Positions 3,691 to 39,992 of a stretch of 64,000 nt of DNA are shown piece by piece. Origin of the DNA: Gemella massiliensis (GTDB lineage Bacteria; Bacillota; Bacilli; Staphylococcales; Gemellaceae); assembly GCF_900120125.1 (NCBI RefSeq), contig NZ_LT635546.1:361228-425227 (forward strand), in the 5' to 3' direction. Both the position numbers and the translations under genes were made by a program. Under the pieces are notes generated by a model. That model made no database searches and had not been told where the DNA came from. It was given only the letters and a program-made list of their open reading frames with translations. Position 1 is the stretch's first letter. Every line of letters begins with the position of its first letter.

Positions 3691-4677
3691 ATGAATAAAA
3701 ATAATAAAGAACAATATAATAATGTAAATAATTATTCTGAATACAATCAGGATAATTATCAAAATCAAAATTTTAATGATGAAAATTATCAATATGATCA
3801 ATTTGGGAATTATAATACTGACTATCAGCATAATAAATTTAATAATGAACAATTCCAAGAAAATTATACAGATATACATCAAAATAACTATAATAACTTT
3901 AATGAAGAATATTACAAAGAAAAGCCTAAAAAGAAGAAAGGATTAATCACTTTTATTAGTGTAGTGATAATTTTAGTTTTAGGAGTTGGTGGTGTTTTCG
4001 GTTATAATTATTTTGTAAAAAATAAAACCATTACTGTTAATATGTCACAATATGATATTGAATTTGTTCCTTTTGGGACTGATGGAGACGGGAAACCGGA
4101 AGTGGATATAAAAAATATACCAACAGTAAATACAGATAGCGAAGATGTGAAAAAATTCTTACAAGAACCAACGATAACTTATAATAAAAATGATAATTTA
4201 AAAAATGGAGATAAAGTAGAAGTAATAATATCATTAAGTAAAACTTCTGCACAGGCAAAACATTTGGTACTTAAAGGGGAGTATAAAAGAACGTTTACTG
4301 TAAGAGGATTGAATGAAAAAACTAAAGAAAAAACAGTAATCGTAGGAGATAATCCATCATTAAGCGGAAAAATAAAAGAAGATCCTTTAATTGATACGAA
4401 AAAATTGTCAAAAGAACAAGTAGCCAAATGGGTAAAAGCATGTTATATAGAAAATAATACAGAATTAACAAATGATGATTTTATTGTTGATGTTTCGCTT
4501 GGAGAAGATAATTTAGTGTATGCTGTTTTAAGTAAAAATCCTAAATCATCTAAATTTAACTCACCTAAAGTGTTGGATCATCGATATAGAATAAATGCAC
4601 ATGGGGAACTGGAAATAAGCTCACGCTTGAAAGATGAGTGGACGATTATAAGTCGTGTATTCAAATATATAGAATAG
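3691..4677 (+). CDS. Membrane-anchored protein with Asn/Tyr/Gln-rich cytoplasmic segment and extracellular domain
   Basis: I do not recognise a named family with certainty. Of 328 residues, about 1-75 are a low-complexity segment dominated by Asn, Tyr, Gln, Asp and Glu. A KPKKKKG patch (79-84) follows, then one transmembrane helix (about 85-108), then an extracytoplasmic part of about 220 residues. The patch makes the N-terminus cytoplasmic by the positive-inside rule. The outer part contains VPFGTDGDGKPEVD, NLKNGDKVEV and a TFTVRGL segment. This resembles, from memory, beta-rich extracellular domains of uncharacterised Firmicute membrane proteins that often follow a zinc ribbon; no zinc ribbon is present here. 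It has its own promoter and a TAGGAG site 11 bases before the ATG, and stands alone before ackA. PrkC (45516-47363) has a similar Asn/Tyr-rich juxtamembrane stretch. Confidence 0.8.
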   Translation: MNKNNKEQYNNVNNYSEYNQDNYQNQNFNDENYQYDQFGNYNTDYQHNKFNNEQFQENYTDIHQNNYNNFNEEYYKEKPKKKKGLITFISVVIILVLGVGGVFGYNYFVKNKTITVNMSQYDIEFVPFGTDGDGKPEVDIKNIPTVNTDSEDVKKFLQEPTITYNKNDNLKNGDKVEVIISLSKTSAQAKHLVLKGEYKRTFTVRGLNEKTKEKTVIVGDNPSLSGKIKEDPLIDTKKLSKEQVAKWVKACYIENNTELTNDDFIVDVSLGEDNLVYAVLSKNPKSSKFNSPKVLDHRYRINAHGELEISSRLKDEWTIISRVFKYIE

Positions 4678-6116: not shown

Positions 6117-7286
6117 GTGTTAGAATATAATAATGAATTATTTAAAGAAAAATTTAATACAGCTATTGAAATTCTTAAAACATTTGAAAACAACAACTTT
6201 AAAGCATATTTTGTAGGTGGTTGTGTTAGAGATTATATATTAAAAAAAGAATTTTCGGATATAGATATAACAACTAATGCATTGCCGGAAGAAATAAAAA
6301 CTATTTTCAATAGAACTATTGATACAGGAATCAAGCATGGGACTGTAACAATTTTCCATAAAGGTAATTATTATGAAGTTACAACTTTTAGAACGGAATT
6401 AGACTATACTAATCATCGTTCTCCGGATAAAGTAGAATTTGTTGGCAGTTTAGAAAAGGATTTAGAACGCCGTGATTTTACGATTAATGCAATGGCACTG
6501 GATTCAAGAGGACGACTTTATGATTTTCATAATGGGCTTAGCGATTTGAATTATAAAATCATTAAAACTGTAAATTCCCCAAATGAACGCTTTAATGAAG
6601 ATGCACTTAGAATGTTGCGGGCATTCCGGTTTTCTTCCAAATTAGAATTTAAAATAGAGGATGAAACTTATAATGCTATTGTGAAAAATAGAGAATTAAT
6701 TAAATTTGTTTCTATAGAAAGAGTAGTAGTTGAATTTAAAAAATTATTACATGAAAAAGGTAATAAAAATGCTTTAGAACAACTTATTAATAGCAAAATA
6801 GGCTGTTATATTCCTTTTATTAAATTTGTAAAAGAGTATACTGATTTTGCTAATTTTACTTTTTCTCAAGCATTATATTGGTTAATGTATTTTAATAATA
6901 TAGAGTTATTGGAGTTAAAAAAATTAAAACTTTCCAATAATGAAATAAATAAAATTAAAAAATATAAAAAAATAAAATTGGAATTTGACAAAAAAACTCC
7001 TATTGAAGTAATAATTTATGATTTTGGAAAAGAAGATGTTAAATTCATAGTGGACATATTTAAGATTATGTCAATTGAGAAATTAAATGATATTTCTCTA
7101 CCTATTTTAAACTTTTCTGAAATAGAAATAACATCAAAGGAAATAATAAAAATAATAAATAAAAAACCCGGATCATGGATAAAAGAAGTTAATAGGTTAA
7201 TTGAAGTAAATATTTTATTAAATAATCTACAAAATAGTAATAAAGAGATAATAGATTTTTTATTAAAATTAAAGGATAAAATATAG
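6117..7286 (+). CDS. cca: CCA tRNA nucleotidyltransferase
   Basis: Adds or repairs the 3' CCA of tRNAs. The 389 residues begin with a class II nucleotidyltransferase head: GGCVRD (34-39), the catalytic SDIDITT with D48 and D50, then RRDFTINAMALD and DALRMLRAFRF, the nucleotide-selecting motifs of bacterial CCA enzymes. The C-terminal half is a lysine- and asparagine-rich helical body. The start is a GTG with GCAGGTG about 6 bases upstream; no in-frame ATG fits the conserved N-terminus. The next gene is the DinG homologue, the usual neighbourhood in Bacilli. Confidence 0.94.
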   Translation: MLEYNNELFKEKFNTAIEILKTFENNNFKAYFVGGCVRDYILKKEFSDIDITTNALPEEIKTIFNRTIDTGIKHGTVTIFHKGNYYEVTTFRTELDYTNHRSPDKVEFVGSLEKDLERRDFTINAMALDSRGRLYDFHNGLSDLNYKIIKTVNSPNERFNEDALRMLRAFRFSSKLEFKIEDETYNAIVKNRELIKFVSIERVVVEFKKLLHEKGNKNALEQLINSKIGCYIPFIKFVKEYTDFANFTFSQALYWLMYFNNIELLELKKLKLSNNEINKIKKYKKIKLEFDKKTPIEVIIYDFGKEDVKFIVDIFKIMSIEKLNDISLPILNFSEIEITSKEIIKIINKKPGSWIKEVNRLIEVNILLNNLQNSNKEIIDFLLKLKDKI

Positions 7287-7328
7287 ATAGATAAAATTTA
7301 ATTTTGTAATGAAAGAGAGGTGAGTAAT

Positions 7329-9176
7329 TTGAAAAATAATAATTTTTGTATTGTGGATATAGAATTAACGGAAGAAAAAGAAATAATTCAATTAGCTGCA
7401 GTAAAACTGGATAGTAATTTTTTTGAAGTTGATAGTATGAACTATTATATAAAACCTGAAACAGGGTTATCCAATTTTGTTGTAGAATTTACAGGAATTA
7501 CTGATAAACAACTTAGTAATAAACCGAAATTCTCTGATATTTCAAATAAAATATATAATTTTATAAAAGATTCTATTTTAATTTGTCATGGTTTAGATTC
7601 CGATTATGGAATTTTATATAAGCATTTTATTAAAAACGGAATATATTATAAACCACCTAAAATGTTTGATACTGTTAAATTGTCACAATTATTCTTCCCA
7701 ATGGAAAGTAGTTATAGATTATCCGATTTAGCTAATTCATTAAATCTTTATAATGGAAATAATTATCACAATGCAAAGACGGATGTTATAGTCACATCTA
7801 ATTTATTAAAAAAAATAACAAAAAAAATATCTTCTCTTGAACAAGAAAATTATAATAAAATATTAAAAATATTAACAGCTGTTAAATCCGATATTATTTG
7901 GTTTATGAAATTTAGTAGAACAAAAAGAAAATTTGTGAAAAATAATATAGGGTATATTTTTTATGCCGGAGTAAAATTTAAAAAAATATATTATTCAAAT
8001 AAAAATAAAAATGTATCAGGAAAAATATTTTTTTCTGCAATTCCTGAAGAAGAATATGCTAAAATGTTTAAAATAAGAAACTATGAAATATTAAAAAATA
8101 AAAGTTCTTATGTTCCGCTTAATATATTTTCGCTCTTACCCAAGAAAAAAGATAATAATTTAGTCAATCTTAGAATAAAGTTAATTGTTTGGATATTGGA
8201 AACAAGTACGGGCGATTTTTCGGAATTAAATCTTTTAAATTCTGAAAAAGTATTTTTAGATGAAATTATGGATTACTTATCAAATAGCCATAAGTCTTAT
8301 TATTTTGATATAAGAAATAAAAAAGCACAGATGAGCAAAAATATTATTACAAATTATTCTAATATTTCAAATATTATTAAAAATATATATTTTAAAAATT
8401 ATAAGTTAATATTTGAAAATGCCAATGTACTGGGAAGAGAATTAAATTCTAAAAATATAAATTTCTATTTTTATAAAAATGTTATAACAGAGTTAAATAT
8501 TGCTATATCGCAAAATCCCAGCAATAAAAATTTAAAAAATATTCGTGATAATCTGGATAGTTTGGTTAAATTTTTAAATGAAATGTATATTTCCGAAAGT
8601 TTGTTTTTATATAACGATAGTATTTATTTTATTAAGCAGGATATAGGGATACTTAAAGATGAGGTAAGTAATAGTAAGTTGAAAATTCCTATAACCAAAA
8701 GTTTTATTTTAAATTTGGATAAGGCAATAATAAATGAAAAAAATAGTTTTAAATTTGATAATTTTACCCAAGAGAACAGCTTGTACTTAAAGATTGTTAA
8801 TGACAAAAATATAAAATATATAGTTAATTCTATTCATACAAAAAAATATTATTATTTAAATGTAAAAAACAGATTGAATATTAGTTACGTTTCCGATAAA
8901 AATGAGATATTGTTTAATAAAATACAAGGCAGAATTTTATATATTTTTGAAAGTAATAAATACCGTGACTTATATTTTAGTGAACGTGATAAAAAATCTT
9001 ATATAAAATATATTAATTTTTCGTCAACAGATAATTTTAGAGACTTATATATTGATCTAAATAAAAATAATCGTTTAATGTATGTTTGCTATGCTACTAA
9101 AGATATTTTAGAATATAATTGTTATTTAAAAAATATCTTTGATTCTATAGTTGTTTTAAAAAATTTAGAATATTAA
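7329..9176 (+). CDS. DinG homologue with intact exonuclease but degenerate helicase region
   Basis: Residues 1-165 form a DEDDh 3'-5' exonuclease like DNA polymerase III epsilon: D10 and E12 (VDIEL), D92, and H147/D152 (HNAKTD). The rest can be matched by eye to DinG: RIKLIVWILETSTGDFSELN (about 282-301) and KKAQMSKNIITNYSNI correspond to conserved DinG segments. However, no Walker A is present, the place of the DEAH box reads ENAN (8415-8426), and the Q-x-x-GR-x-IR motif near the C-terminus is missing. Length is 615 against about 900 for Bacillus DinG. It sits where dinG sits in Bacilli, upstream of asnS-dnaD-nth. Start: a GTG at 7320 lies inside the Shine-Dalgarno (GAGAGGTG), so TTG 7329 is preferred. 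The frame is uninterrupted for 1.8 kb, so it looks maintained rather than decayed. Confidence 0.8.
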   Translation: MKNNNFCIVDIELTEEKEIIQLAAVKLDSNFFEVDSMNYYIKPETGLSNFVVEFTGITDKQLSNKPKFSDISNKIYNFIKDSILICHGLDSDYGILYKHFIKNGIYYKPPKMFDTVKLSQLFFPMESSYRLSDLANSLNLYNGNNYHNAKTDVIVTSNLLKKITKKISSLEQENYNKILKILTAVKSDIIWFMKFSRTKRKFVKNNIGYIFYAGVKFKKIYYSNKNKNVSGKIFFSAIPEEEYAKMFKIRNYEILKNKSSYVPLNIFSLLPKKKDNNLVNLRIKLIVWILETSTGDFSELNLLNSEKVFLDEIMDYLSNSHKSYYFDIRNKKAQMSKNIITNYSNISNIIKNIYFKNYKLIFENANVLGRELNSKNINFYFYKNVITELNIAISQNPSNKNLKNIRDNLDSLVKFLNEMYISESLFLYNDSIYFIKQDIGILKDEVSNSKLKIPITKSFILNLDKAIINEKNSFKFDNFTQENSLYLKIVNDKNIKYIVNSIHTKKYYYLNVKNRLNISYVSDKNEILFNKIQGRILYIFESNKYRDLYFSERDKKSYIKYINFSSTDNFRDLYIDLNKNNRLMYVCYATKDILEYNCYLKNIFDSIVVLKNLEY

Positions 9177-9318: not shown

Positions 9319-10605
9319 TTGAACATCAATAATTTAAAGGAAAAACTAGGTCAAAAAGTAACGATTGGTGCTTGGATTTCCAACAAAAGAAGTAGTGGAA
9401 AGATAGCATTTTTACAATTACGCTATGGTGCCGGATTTATTCAAGCTGTTGCATTAAAAGAGAGTTTAGGAGAAGAACGTTATCAACAATTACGTCATTT
9501 GCCTCAAGAATCTTCATTGAAAGTAACAGGATTAATTAAAGAAAATAATAGAGAGTTATCCGGTATTGAGTTGGAAATTGAAGATTTTACAATTATTTCG
9601 GAAGCAATTGATTATCCAATTACGCCAAAAGAACATGGAGTAGAGTTTTTAGCAGATAATCGTCATATTTGGATACGTTCTAAAAAACAACATGCTATTT
9701 TAATCGTTCGTAATCAAATTATCAAATCAACTTATGATTTCTTTGAAAAAGAAGGATTTTTAAAAACTGATCCTCCAATTTTAACTTCATCTGCTCCTGA
9801 GGGAACTACCGAATTATTTAATACAAAGTATTTTGACGAAGAAGCCTATCTTTCTCAGTCCGGTCAATTATATTTAGAAGCTACTGCTATGGCATTCGGT
9901 AAAGTATTTTCATTTGGGCCGACGTTCAGAGCGGAAAAATCTAAAACACGTCGTCATTTAATTGAATTTTGGATGATTGAAGCAGAAATGGCATTTTGTA
10001 ATCATAATGAAAGTTTAACATTACAAGAGGCTTACGTTAATCATTTAATTGCTGATGTTATTGAAAAATGCCCTGAACAACTAAAAATTCTTGGGCGTGA
10101 TTTAGAAACTTTAAACAATGCTCGTGGTGAATTTCCTCGTATTAAATATAAAGATGCTATTAAGTTGTTAAAAGATAATGGTTTTGATGATATTGAATAC
10201 GGTGACGATTTCGGTTCTCCACACGAAACATTTATAGCAAACAGTTATAATAAACCTGTATTTATTACTAATTGGCCAATAGACATTAAACCTTTCTATA
10301 TGATAGAAGATCCTGCTGGCCCGGGGACAGTATTATGTGCTGATCTTATTGCACCTGAGGGCTATGGAGAAATCATTGGTGGTTCGCAACGTATTGATGA
10401 TTATGATAAATTGCTGGAAAATATCAAAAAGCATGATTTAAACTTGGATGCTTACGGTTGGTATTTGGATCTTAGAAAATATGGTTCTGTTGAACATTCA
10501 GGTTTTGGTCTTGGATTGGAAAGAACTGTGGCATGGATTACAGGAAATGGTCATGTTCGTGAAACTATCCCATTCCCACGTCTATTAAATAGACTTACAC
10601 CTTAA
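9319..10605 (+). CDS. asnS: Asparaginyl-tRNA synthetase
   Basis: Charges tRNA-Asn. The 428 residues comprise an N-terminal OB-fold anticodon-binding domain (about 1-110, with [20 protein letters not shown]) and a class IIb catalytic core. Motif 2 is [19 protein letters not shown] and motif 3 is [13 protein letters not shown] near the C-terminus. [12 protein letters not shown] is typical of AsnRS. The start codon is TTG, decided by a strong AAGGAGG 8 bases upstream (9304-9310). dnaD begins 2 bases after its stop, as in other Bacilli. Confidence 0.95.
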
Positions 10606-36604: not shown

Positions 36605-37069
36605 ATGGAAAGAATTAGTTGGGATGAATATTTTATGGCACAAAGCCATCTCTTATCACTTCGTTCTACTTGTAGTAGATTAGCGGTTGGTGCAACAATA
36701 GTAAAAGATAAAAGAATAGTATCCGGCGGATATAATGGATCTATAAAAGGGGATGAACATTGTATTGATGTTGGTTGTAAAGTAGTAGAAGGTCATTGTG
36801 TGAGAACCATTCATGCGGAAATTAATGCGATCCTTCAATGTTCTAAATTTGGCGTTGGAACAGAAGGCGCAACTATTTATGTGACACATTTTCCATGTTT
36901 AAACTGTACAAAATCAATTATTCAAGCTGGTATTAAAGAAATTTGTTATGCAAATGATTATAGAAATAATGAATATGCAAAAGAATTATTAGAAAAATCA
37001 GGTGTTATAGTTCGTAAGGTGGATTATGACGTTCAAGCGGTAGTAGAAAGGTTATTAAATAAAGAATAA
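36605..37069 (+). CDS. comEB: ComEB/dCMP deaminase family protein
   Basis: Zinc-dependent deoxycytidylate deaminase fold, converting dCMP to dUMP for thymidylate synthesis. The 154 residues contain the zinc site: HAE at 70-72 and PCLNC with C98 and C101. An N-terminal cluster (C53, C58, C65 in EHCIDVGCKVVEGHC) is typical of dCMP deaminases. It lies between comEA and comEC as in Bacillus subtilis, where it is not required for transformation. Its stop overlaps the comEC start by one base. Confidence 0.94.
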   Translation: MERISWDEYFMAQSHLLSLRSTCSRLAVGATIVKDKRIVSGGYNGSIKGDEHCIDVGCKVVEGHCVRTIHAEINAILQCSKFGVGTEGATIYVTHFPCLNCTKSIIQAGIKEICYANDYRNNEYAKELLEKSGVIVRKVDYDVQAVVERLLNKE

Positions 37070-39000
37070 TGTTTTATTTACAATTAGTTTTACTAGCGTT
37101 AATAGGTATATTATTAAACTATAATATACAAATCGCTTTAATGCTAACGGCTATTTTTCTGATAATACTTATGAAAAATAAAAATTTAAACGCTAGGAAA
37201 ACTATCTGTTGTTTGATAGTCTTCTTAGTGTTCTTTGTGCGTGGTGTGCATATTCAAAAAACAAATATTACTCATCTTAATAATTCAAATTCTCAAGAAA
37301 TTATGCTAAATGTAGATGATATGGTAGCTATTAATGGTAATTATTTAAAGGGAATTGCTACTATAGATAATGAAAAAGTATTGTTTAATTATACTTTGAA
37401 AACCAAAACGGAGAAAGATTTTTTTAAAGAAAATTTTACTATCGGAAGAATCTATGCAATAGGAAGTATAGAAGATTTGAAAGATCGAAATAATTTTTAT
37501 TCATTTGATTATAAAAATTATAATAAAAATAAAGGAATTTTCAAACAAATAACTCTAAAAAATATAGAAAAAATTGAAGATAGTGAAAATATTTTATCAA
37601 AATTAAAAGAAATTAGAATAAAACTTATTAAAAAAATAGATAAAGATATTACTTTTGACAAAAGCGGATACTTCCAAGCACTAATATTTGGAGATAAGAG
37701 TTACATGCAAAAAGATGATGTTATAAGTTATAAAAATTTGGGGACGAGTCACCTTCTTGCAATATCAGGACTTCATCTTGGGGTATTAGTAGGATTAATT
37801 TATTACGTGCTGGGTAAGATGAGGGTAAGTGTTGAAATTATAGAAAAAATAATTTTTCTTGTTTTACCGTTTTATATTTTTATTAGTGGGCTAAGCCCTT
37901 CAATTTTAAGAGCCGGTGGAACGATTTTAATTTTTATTTTATTGAGAAAAAATGATAAAAGTAAAGTTGAGTCTTTATGTATAACATGTATAATTTTATT
38001 AGCACTAAAACCTCTTTATGTATTTGATATAGGGTTTGAACTTTCATTTTTTATTGCTTTTAGTCTTTTGATGTCCGGAGATTATATAAAAAGTTCTAAA
38101 AATCCGCTACAAAAAGCTTTTAAAATCAGCTTAATTTCAAGTATGGCAAGTTTTCCAATATTAGCAGCTAATTTTTATACGTTTTCTTATATTTCGCTAA
38201 TAAGTAATATTATTTTAGTCCCAATATTTAGTTTAATAATTTTTCCAATAGTATTGATAAGTTACACTGTTTCTTTAATAAATTTATCTCTTTTTAAAAT
38301 GTTGTTTAAACCTATATTAAACATTATATTCAATGTTTATGATAAAATTCAAGAATTATTTGGTATTTTTAAACCCATAGTAATAGGCAAACAAAAAATT
38401 ATAACATTAATAACTTTATTTTTATTAGTATTATTTATTTTAGCTAATCTAAATAAACGTAACAATAAGTTAGTTATCATTAATTTAATAATTTTGACTT
38501 TTATAATAGGCAGCCTTAATTTTTTTAATTATGAATACAAATTTGAAAAATTAATTATCGCAGGAAAAGAAGTTTATTATTTAAGAGAAAAAAATAAAAC
38601 TTTGTTAATAAATACTTCAAATAATATTAAAAATTTTTATACAGATTTTAGAAAAAAAGATAGTGAATATGATATAATGGACGAGTATCATTTACTGTTA
38701 AATCATGAATCAAAGAGAAATTTTGATTATTTATTAATAACGAGTTCTAATACCAATATTAGCGGTTATGCAAATGAAATAGCAGGTCATAATTTAGTGA
38801 AAAATATTATAATTTTAGATAATCAGGACGAAAAAACAAAAGAATTGGTAAAACTGGCTAAATTTAAAAATATAAAAATCGAAAAATTAGAAAAATATAG
38901 AGGAATAAAACTAGGTGAAGTGGATATTTATTATGAAGCAGATAAAATAATAATAAATAAAAACAGTAATAAGTTTGAGATTAAACTAGAGGATAAATAA
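37069..39000 (+). CDS. comEC: Competence DNA channel ComEC with degenerate nuclease-like domain
   Basis: Forms the channel through which single-stranded DNA enters the cytoplasm. The 643 residues comprise two N-terminal helices, an OB/DUF4131-like region (to about 190), and the competence domain (about 200-480), with FGDKSYMQ and the hallmark LGTSHLLAISGLHLGVLVG. The C-terminal part (about 500-643) matches the metallo-beta-lactamase-like domain by position and outline, but its metal ligands are lost: where ComEC has THPHxDHxGG this protein reads TSSNTNISGY (from residue 558), and the LDVGQGD strand reads IIAGKEVYYL. It overlaps comEB and holA by one base each. Confidence 0.9.
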   Translation: MFYLQLVLLALIGILLNYNIQIALMLTAIFLIILMKNKNLNARKTICCLIVFLVFFVRGVHIQKTNITHLNNSNSQEIMLNVDDMVAINGNYLKGIATIDNEKVLFNYTLKTKTEKDFFKENFTIGRIYAIGSIEDLKDRNNFYSFDYKNYNKNKGIFKQITLKNIEKIEDSENILSKLKEIRIKLIKKIDKDITFDKSGYFQALIFGDKSYMQKDDVISYKNLGTSHLLAISGLHLGVLVGLIYYVLGKMRVSVEIIEKIIFLVLPFYIFISGLSPSILRAGGTILIFILLRKNDKSKVESLCITCIILLALKPLYVFDIGFELSFFIAFSLLMSGDYIKSSKNPLQKAFKISLISSMASFPILAANFYTFSYISLISNIILVPIFSLIIFPIVLISYTVSLINLSLFKMLFKPILNIIFNVYDKIQELFGIFKPIVIGKQKIITLITLFLLVLFILANLNKRNNKLVIINLIILTFIIGSLNFFNYEYKFEKLIIAGKEVYYLREKNKTLLINTSNNIKNFYTDFRKKDSEYDIMDEYHLLLNHESKRNFDYLLITSSNTNISGYANEIAGHNLVKNIIILDNQDEKTKELVKLAKFKNIKIEKLEKYRGIKLGEVDIYYEADKIIINKNSNKFEIKLEDK

Positions 39001-39992
39001 TGAAAAATATATATGTAATCTATGGAGAAAATAAAGAAGCTGTAAATGACTATGAAAAAAAAATAGCGAAAAATTATTTAAAAATATTAGATGAATTTAA
39101 TTATATAAAAATAAATATGAATGAAAATACGATTGAGTCATTAATTTATGAATGTAGGAGTAGCGGTTTGTTTGGTAATGAAAAAGTTGTTATTGCCGAA
39201 AATTGTAATTTTTTATTATCAAGACCTAAAAAAATAAAAATAGAACATAATATTGATGTTTTAGAAAAATATTTAGAGAATATCAATGATGATGTTGTTT
39301 TAATATTAAAATCTTCTGAAAAAATTGATAATAGGAAAAAAATTGTAAAAATCTTGAAGACACAAGGGGAGTTAAAGGAATTTTCTAATTTTAATGAGAG
39401 AGAGCTTGTAGATTTTATTGTTAAAGAAGTTAAAAATTATAACATAAAAATTACTAAGGAAAATGCACAATTTTTAGTAAATTATACTAGATTTGATTTT
39501 TCAAATATTAAGCGTGAACTTGAAAAGTTGATACTATACTGTGAATCTAAAGGTAGTATAAAAAAAGAAGATATAGAGTTACTGTCTACCAGAAGTTTGG
39601 AATATGATGTTTTTGCTTTGACTAATGAGCTTTTTAATAAAAATTATGATAAATTAAGAGAAGTATATTCGGCTTTAGTATTAAATAAGGAAGATTCCAC
39701 ATTTTTACTTTTGTTAATAGCCGGTCAGTTGAGAATTTATTATAAAGTAAAAACACTTTTAAATGAACAATATTCTCAAAAAGAAATAGCGAAAAATTTA
39801 GGTCTTCATCCTTATAGAGTTCAATTGGCGGTACAAGGTGTGGTCCATTATGATATTGAGAAAATAATGAAAACATTAGTTCTTGCGGCAGAATATGATA
39901 AAATGTTGAAAACATCTTATATAGATAAGTATTTAATTTTAGATTTATTTATTAATAAACTAATAGAAGAATTTAAAATAAGCACTAATTAA
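39000..39992 (+). CDS. holA: DNA polymerase III delta subunit
   Basis: Clamp-loader subunit that opens the beta clamp. The 330 residues begin KNIYVIYGENKEAVNDYEKK, the family start, followed by an AAA+-like fold without Walker residues, as expected for delta, and a C-terminal collar domain (FINKLIEEFKIS at the end). Position after comEC is conserved in Bacilli. In many of these genomes rpsT follows; here a C-S lyase gene follows instead. The start ATG overlaps the comEC stop. Confidence 0.9.
   Translation: MKNIYVIYGENKEAVNDYEKKIAKNYLKILDEFNYIKINMNENTIESLIYECRSSGLFGNEKVVIAENCNFLLSRPKKIKIEHNIDVLEKYLENINDDVVLILKSSEKIDNRKKIVKILKTQGELKEFSNFNERELVDFIVKEVKNYNIKITKENAQFLVNYTRFDFSNIKRELEKLILYCESKGSIKKEDIELLSTRSLEYDVFALTNELFNKNYDKLREVYSALVLNKEDSTFLLLLIAGQLRIYYKVKTLLNEQYSQKEIAKNLGLHPYRVQLAVQGVVHYDIEKIMKTLVLAAEYDKMLKTSYIDKYLILDLFINKLIEEFKISTN

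Follow-up and report, generated by a model that had tools for sequence, protein, structure and literature searches.

A DinG orthologue of Gemellaceae that has lost the helicase motor motifs and probably acts as an ATP-independent exonuclease

The gene at positions 7329 to 9176 of the window (the whole stretch of 64,000 nucleotides from Gemella massiliensis that was analyzed; dinG with its parts and its neighbors described below lie on its plus strand) encodes a degenerate ExoDinG protein, which is an ExoDinG by descent but not a helicase by its working parts. Homology to full-length ExoDinG proteins is retained, every ATPase motif is lost, the predicted fold is conserved, the form is fixed throughout the family Gemellaceae, and the gene is under purifying selection. 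With the motor parts lost and the exonuclease site and a folded remnant kept, the protein is therefore probably an exonuclease that works without ATP and for which the former motor serves as a clamp. We assign a probability of roughly 75% to this reading, in which an ancestral loss of the motor turned the Gemellaceae orthologue of ExoDinG into an ATP-independent 3′-5′ exonuclease with a pseudo-helicase clamp.

The dinG gene and its exonuclease domain

Counted from the GTG codon at position 7320, the dinG open reading frame spans positions 7320 to 9176 (+). This GTG is located within a Shine-Dalgarno-like stretch, AGAGAGGTGAG (approximate position, 7313 to 7323), and a stretch of the GAGGTGAG type is kept across the genus Gemella just ahead of the TTG or ATG start of dinG. 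Because the GTG lies inside the stretch and the members of the genus start with TTG or ATG after it, the TTG at 7329 is likely to be the start codon, as the first-pass annotation (made from the sequence alone) had also assumed. The gene then comprises 615 codons and ends with TAA, and an orthologue is present in each of the 15 Gemellaceae genomes; residue numbers used here follow alignment A1, in which residue 2 corresponds to the TTG at 7329. The upstream neighbor is cca (6117 to 7286), a member of the tRNA nucleotidyltransferase/poly(A) polymerase family, in an order that is common to the relatives. Downstream follows asnS (9319 to 10605; asparaginyl-tRNA synthetase, identified by eye), which is also found downstream of the full-length dinG in Staphylococcus. 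The dinG gene of the window shares 95% identity with its counterpart in G. bergeri ATCC 700627. Elsewhere in the window, an open reading frame of 328 residues (3691 to 4677, +) with an Asn/Tyr/Gln-rich low-complexity N terminus (MNKNNKEQYNNVNNYSEYNQDNYQNQNF...) and without a Pfam match is flanked by the suf genes and the acetate kinase gene.

The N-terminal part (7329 to 7820) constitutes a DEDDh 3′-5′ exonuclease domain (Pfam RNase_T, 2e-22); the best match with a solved structure is S. aureus DinG (8zef, 1.3e-27). The first-pass annotation had described all catalytic positions as present, and the alignment bears this out: D10, E12, D95, H149 and D154, as well as the substrate-threading H90 (S. 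aureus numbering), are kept in 14 of 14 aligned Gemellaceae members. The metal-binding and catalytic roles of these residues and the threading role of H90 were assigned from S. aureus DinG (PMC12345164). Given the conserved residues and the published mutants of relatives, we infer that the Gemella exonuclease would be active. The N-terminal DEDDh domain with its full set of catalytic residues agrees with membership in ExoDinG. It separates the protein from the pExoDinG class, which is defined by an incomplete exonuclease active site, and from the sDinG class, in which a DinG fold carries neither ATP-binding residues nor an exonuclease. A phmmer match to the kinetochore protein Spc24 (E of about 0.02) was treated as chance.

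Predicted fold of the C-terminal part and loss of the motor motifs

Walker A, DEAH, SGTL (motif III) and QxxGRxxR (motif VI) were found in none of the 14 Gemellaceae DinG sequences, whereas the full-length outgroup proteins carry DE[A/S]H and motif VI in 15 of 15 cases and the Walker A pattern in 14 of 15 (the exception reads AIGKT). The place of the Q-motif and Walker A (7983 to 8021) is marked by an alignment gap: a segment of about 70 residues, roughly residues 228 to 298 of S. aureus DinG (Sa; boundaries approximate), is absent downstream of the linker hairpin, ahead of the strand of motif Ia, and the P-loop pattern occurs in 0 of 14 members. At the place of motif II stands LIFENANVL (8406 to 8432), and the Gemellaceae consensus at this site is E[N/D]K. 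A complete motor domain 2 with motif VI and Helicase_C_2 is likewise missing, with PF13307 found nowhere in the genome or the family. The first-pass annotation had placed LIFENANVL at the DEAH position and had found neither Walker A nor the C-terminal helicase motifs; both observations hold for the family alignment.

Despite these losses, common descent with ExoDinG is evident from the remaining sequence. With the exonuclease removed, a profile of the 14 Gemellaceae sequences was compared by hhalign with a profile of 15 full-length ExoDinGs from Staphylococcales, and residues of approximately 252 to 386 matched with an E value of 1.1e-15. Two segments that had been aligned by eye to DinG in the first-pass annotation both fall inside this region. 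The C-terminal part by itself is also matched by TIGR01407 (1.4e-12). When the ExoDinG family models (TIGR01407, NF005981 and NF005569) were considered, the curated cutoffs were not reached: TIGR01407 gave 164 bits versus 547.7, PRK08074 gave 153 versus 789, and PRK07246 gave 130 versus 794. For residues 388 to 616, hhalign detected no significant sequence match to the Arch domain and motor domain 2 of full-length DinG. As the sequence alignment fails beyond residue 388, the last approximately 230 residues were assigned by structure prediction only. For the last 130 residues, the position given by MAFFT was not trusted, and a structural alignment ending at Sa 804/807 was used instead.

AlphaFold2 models were built from shallow alignments of Gemellaceae sequences alone. 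The whole protein was modelled with a pLDDT of 87.6 and a pTM of 0.80, and the best solved match of this model is S. aureus DinG (Foldseek, 8.8e-29; VIA Z 30.9, 502 residues, rmsd 5.7). When the C-terminal 412 residues were modelled alone (pLDDT 87.3, pTM 0.84), S. aureus DinG again came first in Foldseek (E of 2.3e-13). The 27 best matches of this C-terminal model, reaching to an E value of about 7e-3, were all DinG/XPD proteins or complexes holding XPD, and unrelated helicases and ATPases entered the list only from 0.03. The structural alignment of the C-terminal model spans Sa residues 205/206 to 804/807 (Z of 11.5 and 10.2); the rmsd to S. aureus DinG is high (7 to 8 Å), so that the domains are either differently arranged, possibly through domain movement, or misplaced in parts. 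The models thus suggest that the Gemella protein has the architecture of S. aureus DinG as far as Sa residue 804 or so. This agrees with the proposal of the first-pass annotation that the C-terminal part is a pseudo-helicase; the prediction did not give the outcome that it had named as refuting, a C-terminal part with no RecA-like fold.

The individual parts can be followed along the gene. Behind the exonuclease lies a helical, fast-evolving linker (7821 to 7940; mean pairwise identity, 27%), which is followed by a predicted β-hairpin (7953 to 7982; AlphaFold2 strands at residues 210 to 219) at the place where S. aureus DinG has the hairpin between exonuclease and motor domain 1, the C-terminal model aligning from Sa 206. 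The block homologous to motor domain 1 of ExoDinG (8079 to 8483; hhalign, 1.1e-15) begins behind motif Ia, includes the pseudo-FeS region and reaches as far as motif II. It contains, by alignment, a pseudo-FeS-like helical segment (8154 to 8246; VWILETSTGDFSELNL), whose TGDxxELNL block is retained in Gemellaceae. The same block carries lysines (8094 to 8102) that align with K336 and K338 of S. aureus DinG, with K in 13 of 14 members and K or R in 12 of 14. In S. aureus DinG, these two residues belong to the DNA channel of motor domain 1 and are needed for helicase activity (PMC12345164). AlphaFold2 places a helical region (8472 to 8735) where the Arch domain would be expected; it carries the family-specific motifs TELN and HEMYISES and has no detectable sequence homology. 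The same holds for sequence homology in the predicted α/β remnant of motor domain 2 (8931 to 9158), which in the structural alignment ends at Sa K801 to F804, the half with motif VI being absent. F804, F823, R858 and Y864 of S. aureus DinG are contacts of motor domain 2 to single-stranded DNA that are essential for helicase activity (PMC12345164). Since the Gemella frame stops at about Sa K801 to F804, these contacts are gone, and any clamp would therefore be weaker or different.

Spread in the family, selection and competing explanations

The motor-less form of dinG was present in all 15 Gemellaceae genomes examined, which cover two genera. In 13 of them the gene is in one open frame, and the copies of G009 and G014 are located at contig ends. 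Copies not cut by contig ends encode 615 to 620 amino acids at identities down to 35 to 40%, and neither broken-frame nor exonuclease-only copies were seen among the 15 genomes. In one of them (G010; L012), a TGA stop is found a few residues before the end of the other members, and the alignment runs briefly beyond it. Helicase_C_2 is absent from 15 of 15 Gemellaceae, whereas all 137 other Staphylococcales genomes of at least 95% completeness have it. In a tree based on the regions shared with full-length ExoDinG, the Gemellaceae form one clade with 100/100 support. Because the form is family-wide, the sequences constitute one clade and the order cca-dinG-asnS is conserved within the family, the data are most simply read as one ancestral change followed by vertical descent. 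The longest branch (1.54) belongs to a full-length ExoDinG from another family of the order (L037; genome G016), which has the unusual motif I APTAIGKT and DESH for DEAH; this could mark the beginning of the same decay or be no more than divergence. Another genome of the order (G458, genus g5) has a Helicase_C_2 match split over two frames (contig 31, 395507 to 395990), and its dinG may be frameshifted near the end.

Among 398 sampled Bacilli, in which some families are thinly represented, no second case of a similarly shortened ExoDinG was detected among the matches listed. Within these, Bacilli without a strong TIGR01407 match had PolC, small exonucleases or DinG-type frames lacking the exonuclease. 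Four genomes of one Bacilli family (G082, G100, G113 and G126) contain DinG-type frames of 746 to 842 amino acids in which the TIGR01407 match starts only behind the exonuclease (position 244 onward), representing either the converse loss of a domain or proteins resembling YpvA.

Selection was tested on two close pairs of Gemellaceae dinG genes only, because synonymous sites are saturated in distant pairs. For these closest pairs, pN/pS was 0.112 (Fisher P = 1e-17) and 0.073 (P = 7e-22) in the pseudo-helicase part and 0.158 and 0.046 in the exonuclease part. The divergence of the homologous block relative to the exonuclease was 1.19 in Gemellaceae versus 1.18 in active ExoDinGs and thus gives no sign of relaxed selection on the pseudo-helicase block. 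The first-pass annotation had spoken of a maintained open frame and had named a complete DinG helicase in orthologues, marking this copy as a recent frameshifted pseudogene, as what would refute it; the frame is indeed under purifying selection, and a complete orthologue exists in 0 of 15 Gemellaceae genomes. The gene is poor in GC (20.6% versus 0.292 for the window), and its GC content at codon positions 1 and 2 (0.232) is the lowest among the listed window genes. Two genes at 37069 to 39992 of the window are similarly GC poor (0.226 and 0.230 overall). The net charge of the C-terminal part varies from +20 to 0 across Gemellaceae and is strongly basic in most members of the genus, but low GC inflates Lys and Asn, so that arguments from charge are weak.

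These data bear on several other explanations. A pseudogene, or a sequencing or assembly artifact of a normal dinG, might be suspected from the short length and the broken motifs. We regard it as ruled out, since the same form occurs in 15 of 15 genomes from two genera, with an intact frame wherever no contig end intervenes, the purifying selection is significant and the predicted fold is confident. A recent pseudogene would be marked by a disrupted frame or relaxed selection and by complete orthologues in close relatives; the Gemella gene shows none of these. It is also very improbable that a rewired site still allows the protein to bind or hydrolyze ATP, or that another subunit in trans enables it to act as a helicase: the model of the motor domain 1 remnant keeps some RecA-like strands, but Walker A, DEAH and motifs III and VI are all missing. 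Moreover, a second DinG/XPD motor was found in the Gemella genome neither by PF13307 nor by PF06733, the latter being weak evidence as this model also misses several control genomes positive for PF13307. Redundancy with an intact DinG/XPD elsewhere in the genome was rejected on the same grounds.

A slow decay, in which only the exonuclease is useful and the rest, passively tolerated because it keeps the protein soluble or stable, is being lost, would fit the low GC content at codon positions 1 and 2, the fast-evolving linker and the two large deletions that have already happened. We nevertheless consider it unlikely, as the C-terminal pN/pS is as low as that of the exonuclease, no relaxation is visible in comparison with active helicases, the length is nearly identical across two genera and no member has been reduced to the exonuclease. 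A more serious rival is that the C-terminal part does not hold nucleic acid but is a protein-protein module docking a partner, such as the replisome, the RNA processing machinery or an unwinding helicase. It has to be taken seriously because the Arch-like region carries family-specific motifs: TELN and HEMYISES are invariant in Gemellaceae and have no counterpart in full-length ExoDinG. In addition, motor domain 2 has lost the half that contacts DNA, and a study of B. subtilis DinG reports an interaction with RecA (PMC12525004). The retained K336/K338 channel pair and the strongly basic C-terminal part of most genus members argue against docking, and no candidate partner was identified; we rate it as a tentative alternative.

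The preferred reading of a pseudo-helicase clamp can be outlined as follows. An ancestral deletion accompanied by motif decay would have removed the ATPase/helicase motor before the Gemellaceae radiated, and the exonuclease would have been kept together with a folded part of the helicase body that is mostly basic. The present protein would then most likely degrade single-stranded DNA and/or RNA from 3′ to 5′ without ATP. What is left of the helicase, namely, motor domain 1 lacking the P-loop, the pseudo-FeS segment, the Arch-like helices and half of motor domain 2, would passively clamp or guide the substrate strand. Both the binding of nucleic acid by the remnant and the choice of the cellular substrate are inferred.

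Relation to known DinG proteins and biological meaning

The closest known system is S. aureus DinG (PDB 8zef and 9ii8; PMC12345164), which is the best match of the Gemella protein in sequence and structure. Both share the DEDDh exonuclease, the hairpin linker, the pseudo-FeS region, Arch-like helices, the first half of motor domain 2 and the place of the gene before asnS. The Gemella protein is shorter by about 280 residues; missing from it are the Walker A segment, DEAH, motifs III and VI and the second half of motor domain 2 with its DNA contacts. As a helicase, S. aureus DinG depends on ATP and works in the 5′-3′ direction, and high ATP inhibits its exonuclease (PMC12345164); such ATP-driven properties cannot be expected of the Gemella protein. 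In S. aureus DinG, 4 nt are bound by the exonuclease and 7 nt by motor domain 2 (PMC12345164), and degradation by B. subtilis DinG ends at 11 ± 2 nt when the enzyme is limiting (PMC12525004).

A disabled motor next to an intact exonuclease is known from laboratory mutants. The Walker A variant K290A of B. subtilis DinG (PMC12525004) and the DEAH variant E465A of L. monocytogenes DinG (PMC12774634) retain 3′-5′ exonuclease activity, and degradation by these enzymes does not need ATP (PMC12525004, PMC12774634). Likewise, the toxicity of overproduced B. subtilis DinG needs the exonuclease but not ATP hydrolysis (PMC12525004). As mutants of this kind keep the exonuclease, they provide a direct precedent for an ATP-independent exonuclease in Gemella. 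They are single substitutions in a whole helicase, whereas the Gemella loss is natural, fixed in the family and accompanied by large deletions. The new functional state of the family proposed in the first-pass annotation is therefore best understood as the natural, fixed counterpart of one that mutants of Bacillus and Listeria DinG had already reached (PMC12525004, PMC12774634).

Two classes described in a review are related to the Gemella form in part (PMC11981726). Cyanobacterial sDinG resembles it in being DinG-like, with a predicted loss of ATP binding and a retained fold, but has no exonuclease domain, keeps a modelled contact of motor domain 2 to DNA and belongs to another phylum. The pExoDinG proteins of Caulobacter and others have also lost one of the two fused activities while keeping the domain; they are the mirror image, with a dead exonuclease site and a helicase thought to be alive. 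The consulted sections of this review define no class that combines a live exonuclease with a dead helicase, and the review does not name Gemella. A literature search for Gemella and DinG returned only unrelated microbiome papers.

RecC and AddB also contain a defunct helicase fold beside a nuclease, which holds and reads nucleic acid; they belong to superfamily 1, have an unrelated origin and act within multisubunit motors. Their likeness to Gemella DinG is one of concept alone, namely, a pseudo-helicase beside a nuclease.

If true, an exonuclease-active pseudo-helicase would add a new state to the XPD/DinG family. It appears likely that the DinG of a whole bacterial family has naturally become a nuclease that does without ATP, with a pseudo-helicase body that selection keeps as a nucleic acid clamp or docking platform. 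Whether ExoDinG is mainly a nuclease or mainly a helicase is unsettled in the literature: helicase activity of S. aureus DinG was absent in older work and found in newer work. Data from B. subtilis and Listeria point to an ATP-independent exonuclease, and Listeria DinG trims unprocessed rRNA. Crosslink repair and resistance in S. aureus need both activities. A natural lineage without the motor, in which nuclease and body are under selection, separates the two activities of ExoDinG. The conserved function in Gemellaceae is thus predicted to be the ATP-independent one, for example, the trimming of unprocessed rRNA or of 3′ ends, and a coupled, ATP-driven function in crosslink repair would be beyond the Gemella protein. 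Gemella DinG also offers a compact, naturally occurring construct with which the contribution of a helicase body to an exonuclease can be studied.
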